A program made the position numbers and the translations under genes. Source: a virus. From it: a DNA stretch of 30,292 nucleotides. The notes below the pieces were generated by a model. The model made no database searches, was not told the origin of the DNA, and worked only from the letters and a program-made list of their open reading frames with translations. Positions 2,866 through 30,292 of this stretch are shown piece by piece (position 1 is the first letter of the stretch; the number at the start of each line of letters is the position of its first letter). The DNA is taken from positions 1 to 30,292 of the IMG/VR virus record IMGVR_UViG_3300042307_000412. One strand, 5' to 3'.

Positions 2866-3441
2866 TTATACAGTTGCACATAAATCCCATTCGAAATTCT
2901 GGTTTTGCCATTCACCATCCATTGGCCAAACTGGACAATCAATAATTGGTTGACAATTCCAAGTAAATGTAGAGTATTTCCAAATATCTGTGGAGTTCCA
3001 TCTAGCACATTCGCTCTCATCTCTTGTTAAGTATACAATATTTCTTGAAGGATCATTATCTGAAATATAAGTAATGGTTACTGTTTCGGGTTGTGTATTC
3101 TCTAAATACATTTGACCTTCTTCTAGTAAATAACCAAATGCTGGATCCAAAGTTGGAGCATCAATAGCCCAAAGTTTGTAATCGTAATTACCACTTGGGG
3201 ACAGTCTGGTCACACCATTTTCTGGATCTATTAATATCTGTTGTTGTACTAGTTCGATGCTGAACTGGGTGTATCTGGTGTTTTGCTTGACGATATTTGG
3301 CATAACGTATGACCATACATTACTAAAACCATTCTTAAAACCAAACAAGAAGTTATTAGACGCATAAGGAATATCAGCACTTAACGTATTAACGTAAATG
3401 ACGATGTCTGTGTTATCAGTAAGATTGCGTAAATTTATCAT
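2866..3441 (-). CDS. Structural protein, first gene of the fibre operon
   Basis: A 191-residue protein with an ATG at 3441-3439, 16 bases downstream of a late-type promoter and beyond a terminator, so it opens the operon that ends with the collagen fibres. The sequence is aromatic and beta-rich, with a C-terminal segment rich in Trp and Cys (NCQPIIDCPVWPMDGEWQ). I know similar proteins only as hypothetical virion proteins of Bacteroidota phages. A tail or capsid surface protein, or an adaptor for the fibres, fits the context. There is no membrane segment or signal peptide, and no enzyme motif. Confidence 0.78.
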   Translation of the reverse strand: MINLRNLTDNTDIVIYVNTLSADIPYASNNFLFGFKNGFSNVWSYVMPNIVKQNTRYTQFSIELVQQQILIDPENGVTRLSPSGNYDYKLWAIDAPTLDPAFGYLLEEGQMYLENTQPETVTITYISDNDPSRNIVYLTRDESECARWNSTDIWKYSTFTWNCQPIIDCPVWPMDGEWQNQNFEWDLCATV

Positions 3442-3456
3442 TACTTTCGTTCTTCT

Positions 3457-3488
3457 TTATTTTAAATATAAGTTATGTCACCTTTGAC
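3457..3488 (-). promoter_or_regulatory. Late-type promoter for fibre operon (L1)
   Basis: On the minus strand the site reads TCAAA (3487-3483), 12 bases, TATATTTAA (3470-3462), followed by AATAAAG. The same arrangement occurs at four other operon starts. Here the upstream element lies inside a perfect dyad, TGTCAAAGGTGACA, which could also be an operator. It follows directly on the terminator at 3498-3526. Confidence 0.65.
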
Positions 3489-3497
3489 ACAACGCAT

Positions 3498-5758: not shown

Positions 5759-5791
5759 TTATCTTAAATATACAGATTTCACACCTGACAT
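5759..5791 (-). promoter_or_regulatory. Late-type promoter for scaffold-capsid operon (L2)
   Basis: The minus strand reads TGTCA (5790-5786), then TATATTTAA (5772-5764), then GATAAAG. It is the least regular of the five late-type sites: TCAGG replaces TCAAA and spacing is one base shorter. It follows the terminator at 5799-5835. Confidence 0.55.
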
Positions 5792-7214: not shown

Positions 7215-7703
7215 TTATTTTAAATCGTCTAAGTCAAAGTCTTTTAATTCACTCTTAACATCTTTGGCTCTGCCTACAAGTTTTTTGAATGCATGCCATA
7301 ATCCATATTTTCTAACAGCTCTATAGTTCTCGTCTGCGCTAAAGACTTCGATTGATGAAAGCACCAATGCAACTACTTTGGTTAATAAAAATTCAACTGC
7401 AAAGAATTGTTGTAAGATGTCACCTAAAATATACTTATCGATCATAAAAAATAAGACGATTGTACCTTCGTAAAGAAACATCTTAGAGATTATTTGACTT
7501 AATTTTCTAGATGAGATCTTTTCTTTAAGCTTTTTTGCTTTCCAAATTCCAATAATAGTATCAGCAAGAATAAGTACTCCCACTGTGATTAATATCCCTT
7601 GGATTGGTGCTAAAAAGGCGATAAGAGCCAATGTGATCTTTGTCATGTGATTGTCTAGTGCTTTTTGTAAGCATTCTGCTTGTTCTTGTAAGTGTTGTAT
7701 CAT
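7215..7703 (-). CDS. Phage holin (holin_4-like)
   Basis: A 162-residue membrane protein starting at the ATG at 7703-7701, overlapping the tape measure stop by one base (TAATG). Hydrophobic segments lie at about residues 21-50 (ITLALIAFLAPIQGILITVG, probably two helices), 81-103 (MFLYEGTIVLFFMIDKYILG) and 110-125, with a basic stretch (WKAKKLKEKISSRK) between. The segment SSIEVFSADENYRAV resembles the Glu-Asn region of holin_4 proteins. Holins form the inner-membrane lesion that triggers lysis. No endolysin gene lies beside it. An alternative role as a membrane anchor for tail assembly cannot be excluded. Confidence 0.75.
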   Translation of the reverse strand: MIQHLQEQAECLQKALDNHMTKITLALIAFLAPIQGILITVGVLILADTIIGIWKAKKLKEKISSRKLSQIISKMFLYEGTIVLFFMIDKYILGDILQQFFAVEFLLTKVVALVLSSIEVFSADENYRAVRKYGLWHAFKKLVGRAKDVKSELKDFDLDDLK

Positions 7704-10105
7704 TAGATTCGTGCGATATCATTAATACGTCGGTCTGCTTCTTGTTGTGATGTCATATCACTAGCTACTACGTATGTTTTAATTATAGGTGTTCCACCAT
7801 TATTAGGTATCTCATTTCCTCCACCTGCTTGGTTAAGTGTTGATAGTAATCCACCGAACATTTCAGTAGATCTTGCATTTATTACTGATTCTCCCGCTGA
7901 TAACATTGCTGGAATTGAGTCTGATGTTCCAGATCCTGGTCCTACAACAAGACCACCCATTGCAAATTTGCTACCACCGCCACCACCAGTACCTCCTCCA
8001 CCTCCACCTACTGGTGATGGTGCTGTAACTTTTGGTTTAGGTACACCAATTCCTGCAATTTTAGCAATACTTGCCAAACCTGAAGCAACTGCCACACCCG
8101 CGGCAATCGGTGCCAATACTGGACCAACAACTGGAATACCAACAACTGATGCAAACGCTGATGTTGCTGATTGATATGTAGTAATTCCTGTTTCAGCAAT
8201 CTTCAATGCTTTAAAGGCAATGGTATTTTCACCAAATAAACTTGCAGCTTGTCCTAAAACTCCAGCTGTAGCTCCTAATTGTGCATTTAAAGTAGCAGTG
8301 TTAATTGCTTGTTTTGCTTCAGCTGCTTGTCTTTCGATATCAACACTTGCTGCAGCGTACTCTTCTTCAGTTAATTTTAATGCATTTAGTTGTTCAATCT
8401 TAGCCTCTTTGTCTATATCAACTTGAGCCAATTCTTTTTGATAACCTTCTTCCATTAAAGAGAATTTGAAATCAGCTGTTGCTTGCGCTTGACCTTCTTC
8501 AATTGCTTTAACTTTTTCAGCATTAATTAAGGCAGCATTTTCAATAAGTGCTGTCTTTTGTGCTTCTGTTAATTGTCTACTATTGATCTCTTGAACCTGT
8601 TGTGCCAGTGCTATTTCTAGCTCTTTCAGCGAACGTTCTGTCTCATTCTCTATAGACATTAAGGTTAACTCATTTCTAAGTCCTAGCAGCTCTGCATTGT
8701 ACGCCTTTTCTTTTTCTGCTCTTACCTTTGCTTGCTCATCAAGTAAGGCTTGAGTATCTTGTGCTTGTTTAGCGTCTAAAGCTTTTTGCTCTTCAATTAA
8801 AGTAGCTTTAAGTGCCTTTTCTTCTTTAGTAAGTGTCTTCTTCTTATTAAGAGTATCAAGTTGAATCTGAATCTCTTTGTCAGCTGCTGCTTGTGTAAGT
8901 TTTAGAGCTTCTTGTGCTCTTTGATCTTGGTCTTTGATACTATCAAGATAAAATGCATCTTGCAATTCCTTGATCTTATCTAAAGCTTTCTTTTGTTCTT
9001 CTAAAGTTTTCTCTCTAAGTTCTTTGGCTTTATCAGCAGCTTCTTTAGCTTTATCGTTGGCTTTATCAGTAGCTTCTTTTTCTTTGTCAGCTTTGTTCTT
9101 GTTAAAATCTGCTTGATCAATTAGGGCTTGGTTATTTAGATCTTTGATTTCTTCTTGTAACTCATTGAGTTTCTTCTTCTTATCATCATCTAACTCACCA
9201 TCCATTTTCTGTAACATCATTAAGGCGTTAACAGCTTTTTGTCTAGAGTCTACTTCTGCTTGGTTGATTTTCTTCTTTTGCTCAAGTAACTGTTCTTCAG
9301 TTGCACCTTGCGCAGCCATTAAATCTAATCTACGTTTTTGTGCAGCGATGTTTTTGTTAGCAGCAGAACTTGCATCGTCTAAAGACTCTATCATTTTCTC
9401 AGAGTTATCTCTAGTCTTTGCAGTCGCAGCGTCATCGATCAAACCAAAACTAAGAACAGAAGCTAAGTCTCTTGCTTTGTCAATAGTCCATTGAATAGCT
9501 TCACCTAAGAAATCAAATTGACCAATGATTTTCTTGATAGGTCCAATCGCAGCTAAGATACCAACTACTAATAAACCTAATGCAGTAACAATTAATCCAA
9601 TTGGATTCATACTTAACGTAATGTTAAGTGCTTTGTTAACACCATTTAAGAGTGCAGTACCAACCATGCTGGCTTTTTCCAAGATGATCTTACGTTCTAA
9701 TGCAGAGTTTAGTAAACCTTCTTTGATGGCTCTAATTCCCATTACAACTGCTAAGGCTTGTTGTGCTTTGGCTTCTACTTTTGCAAGATCTGCACTTTCT
9801 TTACCAAATAAAGCAGATGCTTGAGAAGCTACAGCGAATGCACCTCCTAAACCTTCTGCTAAACCGACAATACCTTGCAGTCTTTTTTCAGCACCACGAC
9901 CTTCTAAGGACTTATCTAAATCCTCTTTAGCAGATCTTGCTTTAATTAATTGTTGTTCAACAGCTTTAAACTCATCTGTACCAAACTTGGCACTCTTCAG
10001 GGTTTCTTCTAACTGTTGTATCGATGAATCTAACTCATCAATGGAGCTGACTGCTTGGTCAACTCCATTAACTTTGAGTGTAAATGCTATAGTTTTATCT
10101 GCCAC
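7703..10105 (-). CDS. Tail tape measure protein
   Basis: An 800-residue protein. The first codon appears to be GTG at 10105-10103, read MADKTIAFTLKVNG; late promoter L3 lies just upstream. Residues 1-60 have a beta strand followed by a coiled coil. Two hydrophobic segments stand out: about 165-190 (GLIVTALGLLVVGILAAIG) and about 650-690 (VVGIPVVGPVLAPIAAGVAV). Between them is a very long Lys/Glu/Ala coiled coil (residues about 240-600). A Gly-rich linker (about 700-715) is followed by a segment with GESVINARSTEMFGG, typical of tape measure C-termini. The tape measure sets tail length and is ejected with the DNA. By the usual ratio of about 1.5 angstrom per residue the tail would be near 120 nm, consistent with a siphophage; that length is an estimate. 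Confidence 0.9.
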   Translation of the reverse strand: MADKTIAFTLKVNGVDQAVSSIDELDSSIQQLEETLKSAKFGTDEFKAVEQQLIKARSAKEDLDKSLEGRGAEKRLQGIVGLAEGLGGAFAVASQASALFGKESADLAKVEAKAQQALAVVMGIRAIKEGLLNSALERKIILEKASMVGTALLNGVNKALNITLSMNPIGLIVTALGLLVVGILAAIGPIKKIIGQFDFLGEAIQWTIDKARDLASVLSFGLIDDAATAKTRDNSEKMIESLDDASSAANKNIAAQKRRLDLMAAQGATEEQLLEQKKKINQAEVDSRQKAVNALMMLQKMDGELDDDKKKKLNELQEEIKDLNNQALIDQADFNKNKADKEKEATDKANDKAKEAADKAKELREKTLEEQKKALDKIKELQDAFYLDSIKDQDQRAQEALKLTQAAADKEIQIQLDTLNKKKTLTKEEKALKATLIEEQKALDAKQAQDTQALLDEQAKVRAEKEKAYNAELLGLRNELTLMSIENETERSLKELEIALAQQVQEINSRQLTEAQKTALIENAALINAEKVKAIEEGQAQATADFKFSLMEEGYQKELAQVDIDKEAKIEQLNALKLTEEEYAAASVDIERQAAEAKQAINTATLNAQLGATAGVLGQAASLFGENTIAFKALKIAETGITTYQSATSAFASVVGIPVVGPVLAPIAAGVAVASGLASIAKIAGIGVPKPKVTAPSPVGGGGGGTGGGGGSKFAMGGLVVGPGSGTSDSIPAMLSAGESVINARSTEMFGGLLSTLNQAGGGNEIPNNGGTPIIKTYVVASDMTSQQEADRRINDIARI

Positions 10106-10121: not shown

Positions 10122-10156
10122 TATATTCTTAAATATACTCATGTTGATTTTTGAAT
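10122..10156 (-). promoter_or_regulatory. Late-type promoter for tape measure operon (L3)
   Basis: The minus strand reads TCAAA (10154-10150), 12 bases, TATATTTAA (10137-10129), then GAATATAAAA. The upstream element almost touches the stop codon of the preceding gene at 10156. No terminator precedes it, so the tape measure may also be read from upstream. Confidence 0.65.
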
Positions 10157-17503: not shown

Positions 17504-17931
17504 ATTTTTGTAATGTCGTTTATGTATTTTTCAATAAATTCTTCAAATCCTACGTTTAGATTTTCTTCAATTAGATCCATGTATCGCTGTTGTACTGCGC
17601 TAAGACTAATCCAATATTGTGGTCTAATACCAAATCTACCTTTTACGTATCGAGTAGCTGCGGGCATCTCAAATATAGATTTGTTATAAGAAGATTCATC
17701 ACGTTCTTGACCAGTACCATATATTGTGTAAATACCATAATTTAAAAAATCAAATGTAATCGAAGTTGTTTGCTTGTTTACATTTACTCTTAATGAATTT
17801 TTTAAATCAGATCTTCGACTAGAAAAAGGACTACGAGGATACTGTGGAACTTGACGTTTTAAATCACGTTCCATTTTCTCTTTTACTAATTCAAGAGTTT
17901 CAATAATTTTAGAATTAGCGTACTTATTCAT
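17500..17931 (-). CDS. Neck or tail-completion protein (HK97 gp10-like)
   Basis: A 143-residue protein starting at the ATG at 17931-17929, with a one-base overlap to the upstream stop (TAATG) and a four-base overlap to the next start. The N-terminus is a charged helix (IIETLELVKEKMERDLKRQV) followed by a motif common in gp10-like proteins, an R-rich segment before LKNSLRVNV, then beta strands around GIYTIYGTGQ. These proteins sit at the junction between head and tail. The gene order connector, gp10-like, terminator-like, chaperone is common in siphophages, although here gp10-like comes after the terminator-like gene. The assignment rests on pattern and place. Confidence 0.65.
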   Translation of the reverse strand: MNKYANSKIIETLELVKEKMERDLKRQVPQYPRSPFSSRRSDLKNSLRVNVNKQTTSITFDFLNYGIYTIYGTGQERDESSYNKSIFEMPAATRYVKGRFGIRPQYWISLSAVQQRYMDLIEENLNVGFEEFIEKYINDITKI

Positions 17932-18404
17932 TATGCAAAGATGATTGGATTGTTACATTGATCAAATGGTGACTTAGCTTCAATTGAAATTTGTGCAGTC
18001 CAACCAACAACAGAATTGTTAAAGCCTTCAAAGAAAGGAGTAGCTACAATTGGCAATTGCATATTATAATCCACGTTCTTCCATGTTGTCATTGTGTAAG
18101 CAGCTAAGATGTCTCGTAAGATTTCCATTGTTGATGAGTGTGTTCTTTCTTCGATATCAAGTTTGTCTTTTGCAAGATCGATAACTACTAAGTCAAAATC
18201 AAATTGTGTAGATCTACCGTCAAGCGTTGCTGGCTGAGGTATAATTTGAACGTATGGATATTTAGCCGATACGGGTTGATCATTGGTTGGTATCTCAATC
18301 ATCGATGCTGGACCTACTCTAAAGGTCTCAATTGCTGGATGTTGAGAGCAAATCGTTCTCATTTGTTGAACGACATCGCGGTACGTTTGTGCAATAACTG
18401 CCAT
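17931..18404 (-). CDS. Probable tail terminator protein
   Basis: A 157-residue protein starting at the ATG at 18404-18402, first gene behind late promoter L4. Features seen are an N-terminal helix (IAQTYRDVVQQMRTICSQ), a beta strand ending in KYPYVQIIPQ, and a segment of the form FDFDLVVIDLAKDK, which fits the strand-helix pattern of tail terminator or minor tail proteins of the gpU type. The next gene, overlapping by one base, is gp10-like. A head-closure protein is the alternative. No catalytic motif is visible. Confidence 0.6.
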   Translation of the reverse strand: MAVIAQTYRDVVQQMRTICSQHPAIETFRVGPASMIEIPTNDQPVSAKYPYVQIIPQPATLDGRSTQFDFDLVVIDLAKDKLDIEERTHSSTMEILRDILAAYTMTTWKNVDYNMQLPIVATPFFEGFNNSVVGWTAQISIEAKSPFDQCNNPIIFA

Positions 18405-18414
18405 TGTGTATGTA

Positions 18415-18448
18415 TTTTATTTTAAATATGTGAAATTGACATTTTGAA
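18415..18448 (-). promoter_or_regulatory. Late-type promoter for tail operon (L4)
   Basis: The minus strand reads TCAAA (18447-18443), 12 bases, CATATTTAA (18430-18422), then AATAAAAT. It fills most of the 47-base gap between the large terminase stop and the tail terminator gene. I see no terminator in this gap. Confidence 0.65.
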
Positions 18449-18451
18449 TTA

Positions 18452-20431: not shown

Positions 20432-20902
20432 TTATATATTCTTTTTTAAATAACGTCGAACTCTATTAATTGTCAATGAGATAGAGGTTCTAGGTATACC
20501 AGTTTCTCTGCTTAAACTAGAGTAGCTGTGATTACCTGCGGCAAAGAGTTTAAACAATTCTTTGTCATACCAATTAAGCTGATCTAATAACTTGTTGACC
20601 TTTTTTATATCAAGGTGTTCTTCTTCTGTTTCAGGTTTGTCGTGGAATTGAAGCTCTTCGTGTTGTTTGACAAATTGTTTGTAAAATGGACCAGTCTGAG
20701 ATCTGTGCTGAGTCATCATAATTCGGACACAATAAAACCTTGCGCCACCTGAATCGACTATATCTTGGATGTTTGCTTTAAGACTCATTTCTTCAATAGC
20801 ATAATGTAGTAAGTCATAACTAAGATCAGAGTTGCCTGTGATCTTGTGTGCAGCTTCTACGAGTGCTTTGTAGTCATGTTCTAAGAATTGGTTAAACGTC
20901 AA
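20432..20902 (-). CDS. Sigma-factor-like protein
   Basis: A 156-residue protein with the layout of a small sigma factor. Residues about 10-65 could be a region 2-like helical bundle (DLLHYAIEEM; FYCVRIMMTQHRS), and residues about 105-156 contain a clear helix-turn-helix of the region 4 type (WYDKELFKLFAAGNHSYSSL, then SRETGIPRTSISLTINRVRR). Such proteins would redirect host RNA polymerase. The frame has no upstream ATG, and TTG at 20902-20900 is the best start; it lies about 25 bases after the terminator at 20925-20958. The protein is a plausible reader of the late-type promoters. It could also be a simple DNA-binding regulator. Confidence 0.7.
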   Translation of the reverse strand: MTFNQFLEHDYKALVEAAHKITGNSDLSYDLLHYAIEEMSLKANIQDIVDSGGARFYCVRIMMTQHRSQTGPFYKQFVKQHEELQFHDKPETEEEHLDIKKVNKLLDQLNWYDKELFKLFAAGNHSYSSLSRETGIPRTSISLTINRVRRYLKKNI

Positions 20903-23239: not shown

Positions 23240-23272
23240 TTTTACTTAAATATAAAAATGTTGAGATTTGAC
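23240..23272 (-). promoter_or_regulatory. Late-type promoter for portal-terminase operon (L5)
   Basis: The minus strand reads TCAAA (23271-23267), 12 bases, TATATTTAA (23254-23246), then GTAAAAG. It begins in the stop region of the upstream gene (23275) and sits about 20 bases before the portal ATG. Confidence 0.65.
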
Positions 23273-23274
23273 AA

Positions 23275-24595: not shown

Positions 24596-24861
24596 ATTGT
24601 TATCAAGTGACGAGACAAAGCTAGTGCAAAACCCTTGGGTGGTTTATTGGTGATCCATCTTTTTTATTCTACTTTCTGGGGTTCTTGCACTGCTTTGTCC
24701 TTTTCTTATTATTTCTTATTAAAAAAGAAGAAGAAGAAGAAGAAAAGAGCTCTGGTGCTTCAAAATTAACATTTTTTGTGTGGACAAAGCTCGGACAAAG
24801 CTGCGCTTTACTTTGTCCTGGGATGCTTTGCTTTGTCCATTTAGTCATTGCTTTGTCCATT
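24596..24861. other. Iteron-rich gap, candidate replication origin
   Basis: This 266-base gap lies after the primase-helicase stop. It has GACAAAGC or GCTTTGTC elements at 24614-24621, 24692-24700, 24782-24790, 24793-24801, 24811-24818, 24830-24838 and 24850-24858; another lies in the helicase gene at 24967-24975. Most are the nine-base GGACAAAGC. It also contains a 21-base imperfect inverted repeat and a GAA run (24727-24744). Repeats of this kind beside a replication gene are the pattern of an origin bound by the initiator. I saw no other such cluster in the window. A frame at 24669-24860 crosses the repeats but is probably not a gene. Confidence 0.5.
24614..24699. repeat. Imperfect inverted repeat with 21-22-base arms
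   Basis: The left arm is at 24614-24634 (gacaaagctagtgcaaaacc plus c) and the right arm at 24678-24699. The reverse complement of the right arm matches the left with one substitution and a short indel. The outer ends are the GACAAAGC element, so the dyad contains two of the iterons. It could fold as a hairpin or be a protein-binding dyad. Confidence 0.6.
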
Positions 24862-27117
24862 TTATCCTAATATTTCCATCATTTGCTTCTCTAAATCTTC
24901 CATTTCTCCGACTAATTTTAGATTTTTATCGATCTTCCAGTACGACATTTTACGAGTTTGACGTGGGCTTTGTCCAATTTTCATAGTCAAACTATCAGTA
25001 ATTACCTTTCTTGGTTGAGGTTCACCTAACCTAAAATCTTTAATTAAACAGTCTTTGATCTCGTAAGTACTCATAGTTTCTTCGTGAGATTTTAAGGCAT
25101 ATTGTAGACTCTTAGTATCAAAGTAACAAAATTCCTCATCCTCATTATCGTCAAACCATTCGATAAATATGTCCTTAATTTTTCTGTATCTTGGACTACT
25201 ACTAGCATCTTTAGCAGTTTCTTTTTCAATAGTCCAATACTCTGCAGGATTAAACCATAAACGTTCTTTGCTATAATACCTTGATGGTTTAAATTCATTA
25301 TCCAAATACCATAAGAAATGACCTACTTCGTCTTCTAATTTACGTAAGAAATCAACATGTTTTTCAGGCTTTGCAATCTTTCGTACCCAAAAACGAGTCG
25401 CTTCGCCATCCATTTTAAGTGGTGTAATGTCATTAGTAAATAGCATTACTTTGCCATAATAATTGACTTCATTTGCATTTTCGTATAGGATCTTACATGG
25501 AATTGTACCACCAGTACTTGTTACCATGTCTTTGATCTTATCAACAATAGCTTGAGGATTAGAATTCCTACTAACACCGCGCGAACTGGACTCTTCTACG
25601 ATAATATCTTGGCAATCCTTAACATAACTATTCTCATCCCTTTCGAGCGCACTAGAATTAATCTTTTTACTGTTAGCAAAACACATTTGTTGGTGGTTAC
25701 CAATGGTAGATTTTCCAGCGTCTTCATCACCTAATAAACATAGTGCGGGTAGCGGTTGAGTTGGTCTGTGTCTTTTAACCCAATAATATTCCAATCCCAA
25801 TTCAAATTGATCACCAAAAATATGTTTAAGAAGTATCTTAGTCATTGGCCATTCACCTTTTTCAATTTGACAACTAGGTAACTTAAACTGATTGTACTTA
25901 TTGTTTTCAATTGGACCATCGTTAAAATAATCGGGTTTGTATCCAAAACCTGCAAACTTTCTAGGAATCATACTTACTGTAATTTCTTTACTTGGAAACC
26001 TTGCTTTAAAACCACCGATGTTGTACTTTTCCATTTTGCCATCAGGATAAATCAAATAAATGTCAGATCCAATCCATGCATAATGATTAATGTTATTTTC
26101 ATAAGGTACACTAATACGTTCACGTTTTACTTCTACATCATCTAAAAAACTTAGATCTATTTCAGGCGTGGTGTCTGTAATTACTTTTGGTTCGTTGATA
26201 GTTCTTGGAGTAATCTTAGCATACTTACTAGCATTATCTACTGCTGCATCTCTGCGTCCAGGTTCATCATAACTACTAAACTCTATAGATAACTTATGTT
26301 TGATATAATCTGCGCTCAGACCATTCTCTAAACATCTACATGCTAGTTGATAAAACCATGGTTGACGAGAATCTATTCCATACTCTGACATTCTTGATAA
26401 AGCATCTTTGTATCTGGTTTCTTCTGTACCATCACCTTCACCTGAATAAGTAACTGTAACGGGTTGATACTTTTTAATTAAAGTCCAATCTTCACCATTT
26501 GCTTCTAACCATGCATCTAATTCTGAGTTTTTGATTCTGCCATTAACAACTACTAGAGTTTGTTTTTTCTCTGTCTTAGTGTTGATTTCATTAGGAGCAC
26601 GTGTTAAACGATTAATGTTTTTACACTGTGTATCTAATTTTAAATCAAACTTAAGTAATATACGTTTGATACATTCATACTTGGCTTCGAATTCATCTTT
26701 GCTAATTGGATCTTCTAAAGCAATTGGAGTATGTAAAGATTTACCACCACTATAAATAATTGCACTATATGGTAGTTTTGATAATTTTAATCTTTCACCT
26801 TGTTCTTGCACTGTGCATTCATCAAACTCAATCGCAAAGTTTCTAATGCTAGTTACATTCTCTTGAGTTATTCTTGGTTTGTTTCTACTGTGTTTTTCAG
26901 AATCAGTAGGATTATTATCCAATGTTGGATGAATAGGATTAATACAATAAAATTGAAAGTCAAAATTATAATCTTCAATAGTACCATTCCATTTGACTAC
27001 TCTATTTTTACGATACTTAAAATCATTCGTAGACTTATCAAAAGGTGCATTTTGAAAACCTATACCCTCTCCGATATCGAAAAGAGTACTATAAAATTTA
27101 TTGACTTTTTCTTTCAT
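24862..27117 (-). CDS. Replicative primase-helicase (AEP primase + SF3 helicase)
   Basis: A 751-residue protein starting at the ATG at 27117-27115, five bases after the previous stop; a TTG at 27156 would add 13 residues but overlap the upstream gene. Residues 94-176 carry archaeo-eukaryotic primase-like features: FAIEFDE (94-100), SGGKSLH (123-129) and RLTRAPN (170-176). After a helical primase C-terminal region comes a superfamily 3-type ATPase of the DUF5906 kind with Walker A GDEDAGKST (463-471), Walker B DIIVEES (504-510) and VMLFTNDITPLKMD followed by a conserved Arg (about 557-576). The protein would unwind and prime phage DNA. No polymerase is present, so the host enzyme must extend. 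The iteron-rich gap directly downstream may be its target. Confidence 0.88.
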   Translation of the reverse strand: MKEKVNKFYSTLFDIGEGIGFQNAPFDKSTNDFKYRKNRVVKWNGTIEDYNFDFQFYCINPIHPTLDNNPTDSEKHSRNKPRITQENVTSIRNFAIEFDECTVQEQGERLKLSKLPYSAIIYSGGKSLHTPIALEDPISKDEFEAKYECIKRILLKFDLKLDTQCKNINRLTRAPNEINTKTEKKQTLVVVNGRIKNSELDAWLEANGEDWTLIKKYQPVTVTYSGEGDGTEETRYKDALSRMSEYGIDSRQPWFYQLACRCLENGLSADYIKHKLSIEFSSYDEPGRRDAAVDNASKYAKITPRTINEPKVITDTTPEIDLSFLDDVEVKRERISVPYENNINHYAWIGSDIYLIYPDGKMEKYNIGGFKARFPSKEITVSMIPRKFAGFGYKPDYFNDGPIENNKYNQFKLPSCQIEKGEWPMTKILLKHIFGDQFELGLEYYWVKRHRPTQPLPALCLLGDEDAGKSTIGNHQQMCFANSKKINSSALERDENSYVKDCQDIIVEESSSRGVSRNSNPQAIVDKIKDMVTSTGGTIPCKILYENANEVNYYGKVMLFTNDITPLKMDGEATRFWVRKIAKPEKHVDFLRKLEDEVGHFLWYLDNEFKPSRYYSKERLWFNPAEYWTIEKETAKDASSSPRYRKIKDIFIEWFDDNEDEEFCYFDTKSLQYALKSHEETMSTYEIKDCLIKDFRLGEPQPRKVITDSLTMKIGQSPRQTRKMSYWKIDKNLKLVGEMEDLEKQMMEILG

Positions 27118-27559: not shown

Positions 27560-27799
27560 TTACTTTGCAAATGCTTTGTGAAGTACTTCTGCTAGATTGT
27601 CAATTGCGTCTGCGATTGCTTTGTTAGAGATAGCTACTTCTTCAGTTGCTAATGCTAATGATGATAGAGAATCTGCAACTGACCATCCAGTTACGTCTGC
27701 TCTTTGATTTGCCATAGCATTTTCTGCTTGCTCTGTTGACATTGCATCGATACTTTTTGCTAGTTCGATGATTGCTTCTGTTGTGATTTGTGTGTTCAT
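27560..27799 (-). CDS. Small early helical protein
   Basis: A 79-residue protein starting at the ATG at 27799-27797, the first gene downstream of promoter P1. It is Ala-rich and almost wholly helical (MNTQITTEAIIELAKSIDAM; SLSSLALATEEVAISNKAIA; DAIDNLAEVLHKAFAK) with no membrane segment or named motif. Early phage genes of this size often block or redirect host functions, but the sequence does not show which. The function is unknown. Confidence 0.65.
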   Translation of the reverse strand: MNTQITTEAIIELAKSIDAMSTEQAENAMANQRADVTGWSVADSLSSLALATEEVAISNKAIADAIDNLAEVLHKAFAK

Positions 27800-27822: not shown

Positions 27823-27852
27823 GTTATACACACACTTAAAACTTTGTTTCAA
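27823..27852 (-). promoter_or_regulatory. Early promoter P1
   Basis: The minus strand reads TTGAAA (27852-27847), 18 bases, TATAAC (27828-27823). The expected start is near 27816, about 17 bases before the ATG of the 79-residue gene. It belongs to a set of five sites with the same spacing. Confidence 0.75.
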
Positions 27853-27910
27853 ACTTTATATAACTTTATTTATCTTATATATTAAGGTACTTTAAAGATC
27901 TCGCCGTAAA

Positions 27911-27941
27911 ACCAAAAAAACTTTGGTTATAACCAAAGTTT
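27911..27941 (-). terminator. Perfect-palindrome terminator overlapping a stop codon
   Basis: A perfect 24-base palindrome at 27918-27941 is followed on the minus strand by a T-rich tract ending in GGTTTT. The stop codon of the 48-residue gene (TAA at 27929-27927) lies in the middle of the palindrome, so terminator and gene end are superimposed. It separates this small unit from promoter P1. Confidence 0.75.
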
Positions 27942-28073
27942 CTCTGTAGGGATGTCATCGATTGCTTGTTCTAATTGAAGAGCAATACCTTCGATTTTTG
28001 ACTGACTGACTAGGATTAGTAGTTCTTGTAACTGTTTAGGTGTTACGTTTAGTGTAATTTCTATTGTTTCCAT
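27927..28073 (-). CDS. 48-residue early protein
   Basis: An open frame from the ATG at 28073-28071 to a TAA at 27929-27927 (METIEITLNVTPKQLQELLI start; IDDIPTEKLWL end). It has its own promoter P2 ten to twenty bases upstream and its own terminator, so it is a complete monocistronic unit. The sequence is acidic with a beta strand followed by helices; the Leu/Ile-rich middle could dimerise. No family is recognised. A small host-takeover or regulatory peptide is possible. Confidence 0.65.
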   Translation of the reverse strand: METIEITLNVTPKQLQELLILVSQSKIEGIALQLEQAIDDIPTEKLWL

Positions 28074-28090
28074 ATTCTTTGTATTTAGAA

Positions 28091-28120
28091 GTTATACAAA
28101 AAATGTATACAATGTTTCAA
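28091..28120 (-). promoter_or_regulatory. Early promoter P2 with operator-like dyad
   Basis: The minus strand reads TTGAAA (28120-28115), 18 bases, TATAAC (28096-28091). Inside the spacer and -10 region lies a dyad, TATACA-N5-TGTATA (28093-28098 and 28104-28109). The expected start is near 28084, about 11 bases before the ATG of the 48-residue gene. The dyad would let a regulator block this promoter only. Confidence 0.75.
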
Positions 28121-28175
28121 CTTTTTTTATAAAGATGTTATATAATCAAAGTACACCGTCGCGCAGGAGTTATAT

Positions 28176-28205
28176 TTTATACGGGCTTTTTACCACTTGT
28201 TTCAC
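28176..28205 (-). promoter_or_regulatory. Early promoter P3
   Basis: The minus strand reads GTGAAA (28205-28200), 18 bases, TATAAA (28181-28176). It directly follows the T tract of the terminator at 28208-28242. Transcription from it would run about 95 bases before reaching the ATG of the 48-residue gene, through GC-rich ACTCCTGCGCGACGG. Confidence 0.7.
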
Positions 28206-28207
28206 AT

Positions 28208-28242
28208 AAAAAAAGCCCAGATGACTCAAACATCTGGGCTTT
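28208..28242 (-). terminator. Rho-independent terminator of the micro-ORF unit
   Basis: A perfect 12-bp stem, AAAGCCCAGATG with CATCTGGGCTTT (28231-28242 and 28212-28223), is followed by seven T residues on the minus strand. It ends the short transcript from promoter P4. Confidence 0.88.
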
Positions 28243-28275
28243 AAACTACTTTCTTCGATTACAAACCTTAAATTT

Positions 28276-28347
28276 TTATAACGATAAAACAACAACAAGC
28301 GCTCCTTGTACGCCATTTAAATTGTTAATACTAATTGTTTGGTTCAT
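28276..28347 (-). CDS. Possible 23-residue leaderless micro-ORF
   Basis: An ATG at 28347-28345 opens a 23-codon frame (MNQTISINNLNGVQGALVVV start) ending in a TAA at 28278-28276. The ATG lies exactly where transcription from promoter P4 should begin, so the message would be leaderless. A strong terminator follows 34 bases later. The end of the peptide is hydrophobic. It may be a translated micropeptide, or the transcript may work as a small RNA. Confidence 0.4.
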   Translation of the reverse strand: MNQTISINNLNGVQGALVVVLSL

Positions 28348-28351
28348 GGTA

Positions 28352-28381
28352 CTTATATCGTTCCCCGTTCCATTGTTTCAC
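28352..28381 (-). promoter_or_regulatory. Early promoter P4
   Basis: The minus strand reads GTGAAA (28381-28376), 18 bases, TATAAG (28357-28352). The expected start is at about 28345, on the ATG of the micro-ORF. Its upstream element lies in one copy of the 12-base repeat TGTAAAGTGAAA. Confidence 0.7.
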
Positions 28382-28410
28382 TTTACATATTGCGAAGCTT
28401 TCACTTTACA
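28376..28410 (-). repeat. Two 12-base direct repeats at promoter P4
   Basis: TGTAAAGTGAAA on the minus strand occurs at 28399-28410 and 28376-28387, start to start 23 bases, which is close to two helical turns. The second copy covers the -35 element of P4. The pair could bind one regulator on one face of the DNA. Confidence 0.6.
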
Positions 28411-28411
28411 C

Positions 28412-28503
28412 ATAAAAAAACCCTAAATCGAGAAATGGCTTAAACGAGATAGGGTTTTAAAAAACAAAAATAGATTTATTAAATGAACAAATAATAAACT
28501 TAT
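28412..28503 (-). ncRNA. Candidate small RNA between P5 and a terminator
   Basis: Promoter P5 should start a transcript near 28503, and the terminator at 28413-28458 should end it about 90 bases later. There is no ATG in between. It could be a short phage RNA. The alternative is that the terminator simply closes the fibre operon and P5 reads through it. Confidence 0.35.
28413..28458 (-). terminator. Terminator after fibre gene
   Basis: AAAACCCTA and TAGGGTTTT flank an inner CTCG/CGA part, with mismatched positions between, and are followed by seven T residues on the minus strand. It lies about 80 bases after the stop of the collagen fibre gene and would end the fibre operon as well as any P5 transcript. 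The A tract on its other side allows some bidirectional use. Confidence 0.75.
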
Positions 28504-28509
28504 ATGCTA

Positions 28510-28539
28510 TTTATACTACTTTTGTAGAGTTTGTTTCAA
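28510..28539 (-). promoter_or_regulatory. Early promoter P5
   Basis: The minus strand reads TTGAAA (28539-28534), 18 bases, TATAAA (28515-28510). Its first base touches the stop codon of the fibre gene (28542-28540). It is the first promoter of the control region. Confidence 0.7.
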
Positions 28540-30292
28540 TTAATTTTGTTTTTTAGCGTATCCACCAACTAAAGTAGTAGAACTTCCAGCGTTATCGACG
28601 TATCCAATAAAATGTATGTAAACTGGTACTGTCCAATCTAGTGGTTTAGCTAAATTATCTGGATAAACAAAGCCTCCTTGAAGATTATCAAATTCAAGGA
28701 AATTATCAACTGCACCGCTTGCAGTACCAAATCCAGTTCCATTTGCTGTATTAATAACTAAATTTTTCTCTAAAACAAAACCAGCTAATGATGTTGAATT
28801 TGTACCACCTAATGTATACCAAACTCCAGAATATATTGCAGGAGAATTACTTATTGCAGCTGAAGTGTATACAGTTCCTGCTCCTCCATAATTCGATGAG
28901 TACAGTGCCCATATTTTTACAATATCACCAGAAATAAAACTATTTGCTGGAATAGTGATTGATGTAATAATAGTATTTGTACCACTAGGTCCATTTAAAG
29001 TAGTTCTTGTTGCAGAATATCCACTTACTACAGATCCTGTTGCTCCTTGCGCACCTGTTGGTCCATTTGCACCAGTAGCACCTTGTGCACCCGTTGGTCC
29101 ACCTGCAGGTCCCGCTACACCTTGAGCACCATCAGCACCTTTAGATCCATTTGGTTGATAGAAACTATAACCATAACTAAATGCTGTATTTGTTGCATTT
29201 GATAAAGTAGCTCCAATTGTAATATATTGGTCAACTGTCCAATCAATATTTAATGCCAATAATGGTGCTTGAAGAGTAGTAGAACTAGATTGCCAATCAA
29301 TGCCTGAACCACTAGATGCAAGTATATTTGTAGCAGTTGCTGAATTAACAAAAAATTGTCTACTGAAAGAAATTAAAGTAGAAGTTGTACCCATGATAGG
29401 TAAAGTACCTGAAACACCGCATATATTAGTACCACCTAAGCCTACTGAAGTTCCTATATAAGCTTTAAATGTAGTACTACCTGAAACTGTTTTAGTTGAT
29501 CCAAGTCTCATATTTAAATTATAGATATTACCTGGAGTTACTGAATTTGCTGGAATTAAAATGGAGTCTACTACTGTTTCTACTGTAGTAAATCCTGTTA
29601 CTGGTGTACTAGGTACTAAATTAGTAATTGATAAACCAGCAGGCATACCAGTAGTTCCTTGTGCACCTGTAGCACCTTGAGCTCCCGTAATACCTTGAGC
29701 ACCTTGTGCTCCAGTTTCACCTTTGTTTCCAACAACACCAACTGAAGTTACAACAAAAGAGTAGTAACCATTTTCTGTAGAAAAAACTACTGAACGAGGT
29801 GTAGTATCTAAGTTGTTTAAATATAATTTAACAATCATTCTATCAGTTGGATCAATACTAGTTGTAGGTAATACAACATCAATATTAACTTCATTTGGTA
29901 ATCCTGATTCCCAATCAATTGTATGTAAACCTGAAGTAATAACTGGTCCGTATGGTACACCAGCACTATTAGCTAATTGTAAAGTCACATAAGTGTCAAC
30001 ATCAGCAACTGCTGCTGGTAAAGTATAAAATACATTGAATCTTTGAACTCCAGCAGGAATAACAGGGAAACCAATCTCTTGCGACATAAATTGCTGTACT
30101 AATGCACCTGTTTGACTACTTGTTAAATTTGTAGTAACTGTTTGTGTAGTAGCTGTTGTAGGTAATGTACTTAGATTTCTATAACCTAAAACGTCAGACG
30201 CTTCAGATTGATTAAAGTAGAATACTGCGCCTGCTGAAATTCCAGCAGTACCTTGAGCTCCTGTTGAGCCTTGAGCACCTTGTGCACCTTCT
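28540..30292 (-). CDS. Collagen-like tail fibre, C-terminal part (continues at left end)
   Basis: This is the 3' part of the fibre gene that begins at 685. An ATG at 30087 (MSQEIGFPVIPAGVQRF) could look like a start, but the frame is open past it to the edge and is the same sequence as at position 1, so it is internal. After the first stalk a globular domain follows ([20 protein letters not shown] region), then two more short collagen blocks near [19 protein letters not shown] and GADGAQGVAGPAGGPTG, each followed by a beta-rich domain. The alternating stalk and globular pattern suits a segmented trimeric fibre. The stop is at 28542-28540, next to promoter P5. Domain functions are unknown. Confidence 0.85.
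   Translation of the reverse strand, partial: EGAQGAQGSTGAQGTAGISAGAVFYFNQSEASDVLGYRNLSTLPTTATTQTVTTNLTSSQTGALVQQFMSQEIGFPVIPAGVQRFNVFYTLPAAVADVDTYVTLQLANSAGVPYGPVITSGLHTIDWESGLPNEVNIDVVLPTTSIDPTDRMIVKLYLNNLDTTPRSVVFSTENGYYSFVVTSVGVVGNKGETGAQGAQGITGAQGATGAQGTTGMPAGLSITNLVPSTPVTGFTTVETVVDSILIPANSVTPGNIYNLNMRLGSTKTVSGSTTFKAYIGTSVGLGGTNICGVSGTLPIMGTTSTLISFSRQFFVNSATATNILASSGSGIDWQSSSTTLQAPLLALNIDWTVDQYITIGATLSNATNTAFSYGYSFYQPNGSKGADGAQGVAGPAGGPTGAQGATGANGPTGAQGATGSVVSGYSATRTTLNGPSGTNTIITSITIPANSFISGDIVKIWALYSSNYGGAGTVYTSAAISNSPAIYSGVWYTLGGTNSTSLAGFVLEKNLVINTANGTGFGTASGAVDNFLEFDNLQGGFVYPDNLAKPLDWTVPVYIHFIGYVDNAGSSTTLVGGYAKKQN
30156..30281. repeat. Terminal direct repeat, right copy (circular overlap)
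   Basis: Identical to 1-126 over 126 bases. Beyond 30281 it carries nine extra bases encoding one Gly-Ala-Gln triplet relative to the left copy, then agrees again with 121-128. Confidence 0.85.

Follow-up and report, generated by a model that had tools for sequence, protein, structure and literature searches.

Organisation of the early control region

The early control region of the window (the whole stretch of DNA analysed here, a single IMG/VR record of 30,292 bases in which nearly every gene lies on the minus strand) contains five minus-strand sites of one two-block design, TGAAACA followed by TATAA, with exactly 16 bases between the blocks. All five were confirmed where the preliminary description had placed them, and the 18-base spacing given there is the same distance measured from a TTGAAA-type hexamer. 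Following the direction of transcription, we number these putative early promoters from P5 down to P1. P5 (28510–28539, TTGAAACA-N16-TATAAA) begins right at the stop codon of a collagen-like gene and is conserved in L013 and L015, two relatives whose sigma-like proteins are 90% and 87% identical to that of the window. P4 (28352–28381, GTGAAACA-N16-TATAAG) has the version TGAAACT in L013, and P3 (28176–28205, GTGAAACA-N16-TATAAA) directly abuts the U-run of a predicted terminator. P2 (28091–28120) and P1 (27823–27852) both read TTGAAACA-N16-TATAAC, P1 being conserved in L013.

P3 and P2 would serve a 48-codon open reading frame (27927–28073, minus strand) that ends in a palindromic terminator (27941–27914) and is absent from L013. 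Behind P1 lie a 79-codon early open reading frame (27560–27799), a hairpin (27549–27530), a winged-helix-like open reading frame (27506–27123) and the primase gene (27156–24862), all on the minus strand. Ahead of P4, two direct repeats of TGTAAAGTGAAA with a period of 23 occupy 28376–28410 on the minus strand; the second copy overlaps the −35 element of P4, making the pair an operator candidate. A similar TGTAAAGTGAAA pair ahead of an early promoter is kept in the window's clade, and is present in the control region of G018 (locus L134; sigma-like protein 73% identical) at about 2046–2090.

Two further features border this region. TAATTGAAACA occurs at either side of the collagen-like gene (685–716 and 28530–28545), and the gene itself is missing from this position in L015 and G018, where the first promoter directly follows the stop codon of the homologue of open reading frame 717–1025; in the window, and in the same order in L006, the collagen-like gene stands between that frame and the first promoter. 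The gene resembles a cassette that was added at the position of the first early promoter. At 24640–24870, in the stretch that separates primase from HNH, repeats of the GGACAAAGC type are clustered in either orientation and could be replication-origin iterons or regulator sites.

A profile search with the sigma-like protein retrieved relatives at 65 loci in IMG/VR, and the gene set common to the family comprises portal, capsid, terminase, scaffold and tape-measure genes. The same route found no relative of the sigma-like protein in GTDB genomes, nor was a relative of the capsid protein found there; among 50,697 cultured-phage records there was no match to the sigma-like protein, and cultured phages likewise lacked a relative of the capsid. 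The window belongs to a family of ~30 kb uncultivated tailed phages for which no cultured member was found in the records searched, and the host can therefore be approached only through translation signals. Shine-Dalgarno sequences are missing from the genes, whose leaders are A-rich and carry A at −3; the same has been reported for Bacteroidota (PMC6847099, PMC9723704), the probable host phylum.

The predicted early promoter class across the family

Within the window, TGAAACA and TATAA separated by 14–20 bases occur six times, compared with 0.24 expected from dinucleotide-preserving shuffles. The sixth match (20605–20633, gap 17; GAAAC-N18-TATAA in the spelling of the family class) falls within the sigma gene, where it seems to be a coincidence of coding sequence: it encodes ETEEEHLDI, and is kept in close relatives probably only because an acidic linker is encoded there. 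No other exact match lies between genes in the window, so the observation that such sites stand in front of genes nowhere else was correct.

To count motif spacings, family records were oriented by the sigma gene, and class counts were dereplicated by leaving out duplicates and the window's own clade. The consensus of the early class is (T)GAAAC-N17/18-TATAA, with a sharp peak in the spacing of GAAAC and TATAA at N17 in the close and middle clades and at N18 in the distant ones. Outside the window's clade we counted 42 sense sites (18 N17 and 24 N18) and 6 antisense sites, with a shuffled-genome mean of 4.6. Antisense sites such as those in G046, G036, G021, G025 and G012, some with one mismatch, lie just upstream of genes on their own strand. 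The spacing peak, the excess of sense sites and the placement of the antisense sites together form a promoter signature. An even scatter of the motif through related genomes had been named as the outcome that would speak against promoters; we found instead that the motif favours one strand and seldom occurs outside the early block.

L013 and L015 keep the promoter design although the bases separating the two blocks have largely changed. There are five early promoters in L015, the last with one extra base between the blocks, and three in L013, one with A changed to T at position 7; three tandem sites are also present in G018 and L137. The reading of the five sites as tandem promoters of one design upstream of early genes is thus supported by the same placement in relatives. 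In the majority of distant genomes the early promoters are placed after g21406 and ahead of the sigma gene, and G005 has one just upstream of a DUF5681–sigma pair. In the window and G018 the early block is shifted upstream of portal, and the promoter preceding the sigma gene is of the late class, with no early one directly before it. The five sites are real and belong to a predicted promoter class found across the family, not one peculiar to the window phage.

A pattern scan of viral contigs returned only known records, and neither the early class nor the late class described below was in excess in five cultured Bacteroidota phages used as controls. A peak of GAAAC-N15-TATAA (10/0) was rejected as a promoter spacing, being made up mostly of coding matches, several of them at the end of the sigma gene. 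The early genes of L118 (G025), L058 (G028), L092 (G023) and L054 run opposite in direction to the late genes, and in G025 the early-class site that was found turns together with its genes.

A probable late promoter class and a predicted phage sigma factor

A second motif, T(G/T)TCA-N15-ATA(T/C)TTA, was read from the gaps before structural genes and then recovered by an unbiased two-block count. The ATATTTA form occurs in the close and middle clades, and TGTCA-N15-ATACTTA in many distant ones. Outside the window's clade, after dereplication, there are 77 sense and 2 antisense sites at N15, compared with 4 in shuffles, and at any other spacing no more than 7 per strand. In relatives the motif precedes portal (29/41), scaffold (21/24), g2866 (21/26), g17931 (23/36) and tape measure (6/25); a match is found at 7 of 39 DUF5681 starts and at none of the seven interior late genes tested (capsid, terminase and others).

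The corresponding minus-strand sites in the window read TGTCA-N15-ATATTTA before portal (23247–23273) and before gene 2866–3441 (3463–3489), and ATTCA-N15-ATATTTA before gene 17931–18404 (18423–18449) and before the tape-measure-like gene 7703–10105 (10130–10156). A promoter-like site before the scaffold-like gene (5765–5790, TGTCA-N14-ATATTTA) is one base shorter than the N15 form of most relatives. We take these sites to be late promoters, and the early class to be the other half of a two-class system. The late class had been overlooked at first reading because its sequence looks different from that of the early class.

The protein encoded at 20432–20902 (minus strand, 156 aa) is a predicted ECF-type sigma factor, as judged by profile match and predicted structure. 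The NCBIfam sigma70-ECF model matches the window protein over its full length and matches all 46 of 46 aligned family members (best E 6.8e-11), but the window protein scores below the curated cut-offs, at 34.2 versus 42.9 bits for this model and 19.2 versus 25.7 for another sigma model. The AlphaFold model has a mean pLDDT of 85 and two domains. Its best Foldseek matches are ECF sigmas with a probability of 1.00 but E-values near 0.005, and on superposition the C-terminal part lies on region 4 of sigmaE and the N-terminal part on RpoE, with modest Z scores of 8–9. The protein is small with only regions 2 and 4, as in ECF (group 4) sigmas, and several viral look-alikes are annotated as sigma factors of uncultured phages. 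Co-variation between sigma residue changes and promoter changes across the family is confounded by phylogeny, so that conservation alone cannot decide which class the sigma reads.

Short terminated units and predicted structured RNAs

The preliminary description proposed at least three very short units, each with its own terminator. This holds as a sequence prediction, since terminators were found at 28242–28212 (strong), at 28458–28414 (a bulged stem, RNA fold z of −4.2) and at 27941–27914 (a 24-nt palindrome with a U-run).

From P5, a predicted noncoding RNA of about 90 nt (RNA A, 28414–28503, minus strand) would comprise a 5' hairpin, a U-rich stretch and the terminator hairpin 28458–28414 with the loop GUUUAAGCCAU. 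Its fold z is −4.2 in the window and −5.4 and −5.4 in relatives; the terminator stem of L015 differs from the others, and the loop is kept. From P4, a predicted noncoding RNA of about 138 nt (RNA B, 28208–28345, minus strand; fold z −2.8 in the window) would contain a hairpin at 28314–28298 and end at terminator 28242–28212 and its U-run. The hairpin has five pairs and AAGGA in its loop, and is not the minimum-energy fold in every case. By eye, its stem is kept by paired changes: GGCGU/GCGCU in the window, GGUGG/CCAUC in L013, GGUCG/CGAUC in L015 and GGCUG/CAGUC in G018. The remaining units of the window are P3 and P2 with the 48-codon frame, and P1 with the 79-codon frame and the replication genes. 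Across the terminators, loops are better conserved in sequence than stems.

In the family, an intrinsic terminator follows within 260 nt at 18 of 59 early sites; the corresponding figures are 1 of 76 for late sites and 1.8% for random positions. The early fraction is a lower bound, as the terminator detector misses bulged stems and missed that of window P5. It is common for the next early promoter to begin directly at a terminator's U-run, as at P3 and in L015, L137 and G036.

Relatives have structured RNAs in the corresponding position. In the distant genomes the first unit after g21406 is often a long end-paired hairpin followed by a terminator. A further unit in G016, G017, G038, G042, G046, L063 and perhaps G029 has two mutually complementary hairpin loops, whose sequences differ from genome to genome. 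MAFFT alignments of the RNAs misplaced helices, and covariation was therefore read by hand and tested by loop permutation: only the true pairing among 5040 re-pairings reached the observed kissing-loop score. The loops were picked from folds, so this evidence is strong but not blind. Rfam 15 gave no match at the gathering score in the window or in the loci of nine relatives. Taken together, early promoters are predicted often to drive very short structured RNAs.

Proposed recognition of the two classes

The early class departs from the sigma70 consensus (TTGACA, 17 nt, TATAAT): the −10 element is TATAAT-like, whereas GAAAC forms the −35 core and the distant clades exceed the consensus spacing; TTGACA..TATAAT pairs are not enriched in family records. 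The primary sigma of Bacteroidota (Flavobacterium) reads a −7 box of TAnnTTTG (PMC9723704). That the five sites do not fit TTTG/TAnnTTTG was borne out, as none has this box with TTG at −33, and it is absent from both classes. TTTG..TAnnTTTG pairs peaked in the family only at N22, mostly in one stretch of portal gene coding sequence, and were rejected as consensus promoters. We lean towards recognition of the early class by a host sigma factor, which we leave unnamed, and the best reading pairs the early class with host polymerase and the late class with the phage sigma.

The simplest order would then run from the early class to the sigma to the late class. Host RNA polymerase with a host sigma would read the early class first; the early block, which in relatives includes the ECF-type sigma gene, would supply a sigma that directs host core polymerase to the late class, and this class would in turn serve the genes for portal, scaffold and tape measure as well as two further structural genes. 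Part of the early class precedes short predicted noncoding units ending at intrinsic terminators (RNAs A and B in the window), and the rest small early open reading frames and replication genes. With short units in tandem, many copies of RNA would be made at the same time, the terminators insulating each unit, and the RNAs may act in trans or as attenuated leaders. We consider it likely that the five sites are early promoters of such a two-class phage cascade, part of them giving short terminated RNAs. Several points count against this account: the sigma gene of the window and of G018 follows a late promoter, the early class lacks the TAnnTTTG box of the likely host phylum, changes in sigma and motif are confounded by phylogeny, and the window's sigma scores below the curated cut-offs.

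The poor fit of the early class to the Bacteroidota primary sigma speaks for an alternative that we consider unlikely, in which the early class is the target of the phage ECF sigma, which would amplify its own expression, while a different factor would serve the late class. ECF −35 elements resemble GAAAC followed by T-rich sequence, as found in the distant clades, and many genomes have early sites upstream of the sigma gene, as for autoregulated ECF sigmas. Such a sigma, however, would be required for its own first expression and would leave the late class needing a second unknown factor, and the −10 element TATAA(T) is typical of primary sigmas and canonical outside Bacteroidota. The strict two-block geometry of the late class is also that of a dedicated sigma, as in phage 7-11 (PMC8948821). 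That the sites are no promoters at all has little in its favour. TATAA is common in this AT-rich DNA (1619 on one strand of the family records and 1552 on the other), but the shuffles rule out chance matches, given the excesses in the window and its relatives, and leave this explanation a negligible probability. Binding sites for a phage repressor or replication protein would agree with the clustering in the control region and with the further direct repeat in the P4 flank; we regard them as very improbable, as the blocks keep a fixed spacing around a variable middle, are always oriented with the downstream gene and have terminators downstream.

What the short units do is a separate matter from the cascade. 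In the lambda 6S leader at pR' and in HK022 put, transcription from a phage promoter stops at a terminator upstream of an operon, which leaves a short structured RNA. The arrangement of promoter, structured RNA and terminator directly before early genes fits this pattern, and the terminator loops are conserved. The units of the window phage could be attenuated leaders of early operons, with a phage factor allowing read-through, instead of free small RNAs; they differ from lambda 6S and put in that several stand in tandem, with a separate promoter for each. We hold this to be rather doubtful: no antiterminator gene was recognised, and a new promoter often directly follows the terminator, which makes read-through unnecessary. 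The data fit early noncoding RNAs and attenuated leaders equally well, with no target identified, and do not single out the shutdown-or-switch module first suggested. More specifically, early promoters outside the known Bacteroidota specificity might express new structured small-RNA families, of kissing-loop and AAGGA-loop types, acting in trans on early host or phage gene expression, an idea that we put forward tentatively.

Relation to known phage transcription programmes

Salmonella phage 7-11 has early promoters of sigma70 consensus read by host holoenzyme, a sigma factor (gp47) and two-block late promoters GTAAtg-(16)-aCTA upstream of late genes (PMC8948821, PMC4331800). Escherichia phage phiEco32 sigma gp36 redirects host polymerase to middle and late promoters, as summarised in PMC8948821. 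The window phage resembles both in having a phage sigma and a distinct promoter class upstream of late genes; here we infer the pairing of sigma and class, the redirection of host polymerase to later promoters and the early use of host holoenzyme. Phage 7-11 differs in its promoter sequences, its much larger genome, its enteric host and its sigma70-consensus early promoters, and the passages covered describe no tandem noncoding units for it. The single-element TAATGTATA promoters (PMC4331800) and the host-transcription inhibitor gp79 of phiEco32 were not recognised in the window phage. Flavobacterium primary-sigma promoters share the probable host phylum, but their TAnnTTTG box (PMC9723704) is in neither phage class. 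The proposed cascade is of a kind already known from 7-11 and phiEco32, and it is the sequence specificity, genome type and tandem noncoding units that differ.

The analysis gives a sequence-level transcription programme, of early class, phage sigma and late class, for a phage family without a cultured member found. It predicts start sites that are open to existing metatranscriptomes, adds candidates for new structured RNAs in phages that probably infect Bacteroidota, and raises the puzzle of which polymerase form reads an early promoter unlike the host consensus.

Nonlabens phage P12024L (L128) encodes gp35, annotated with sigma region 2, for which no alignment to the window phage's sigma family was obtained. 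In this phage a CGTTAATA-type repeat lies just before the start codons of gp01, gp05, gp08, gp42, gp45 and gp46, and may be a promoter class of its own.
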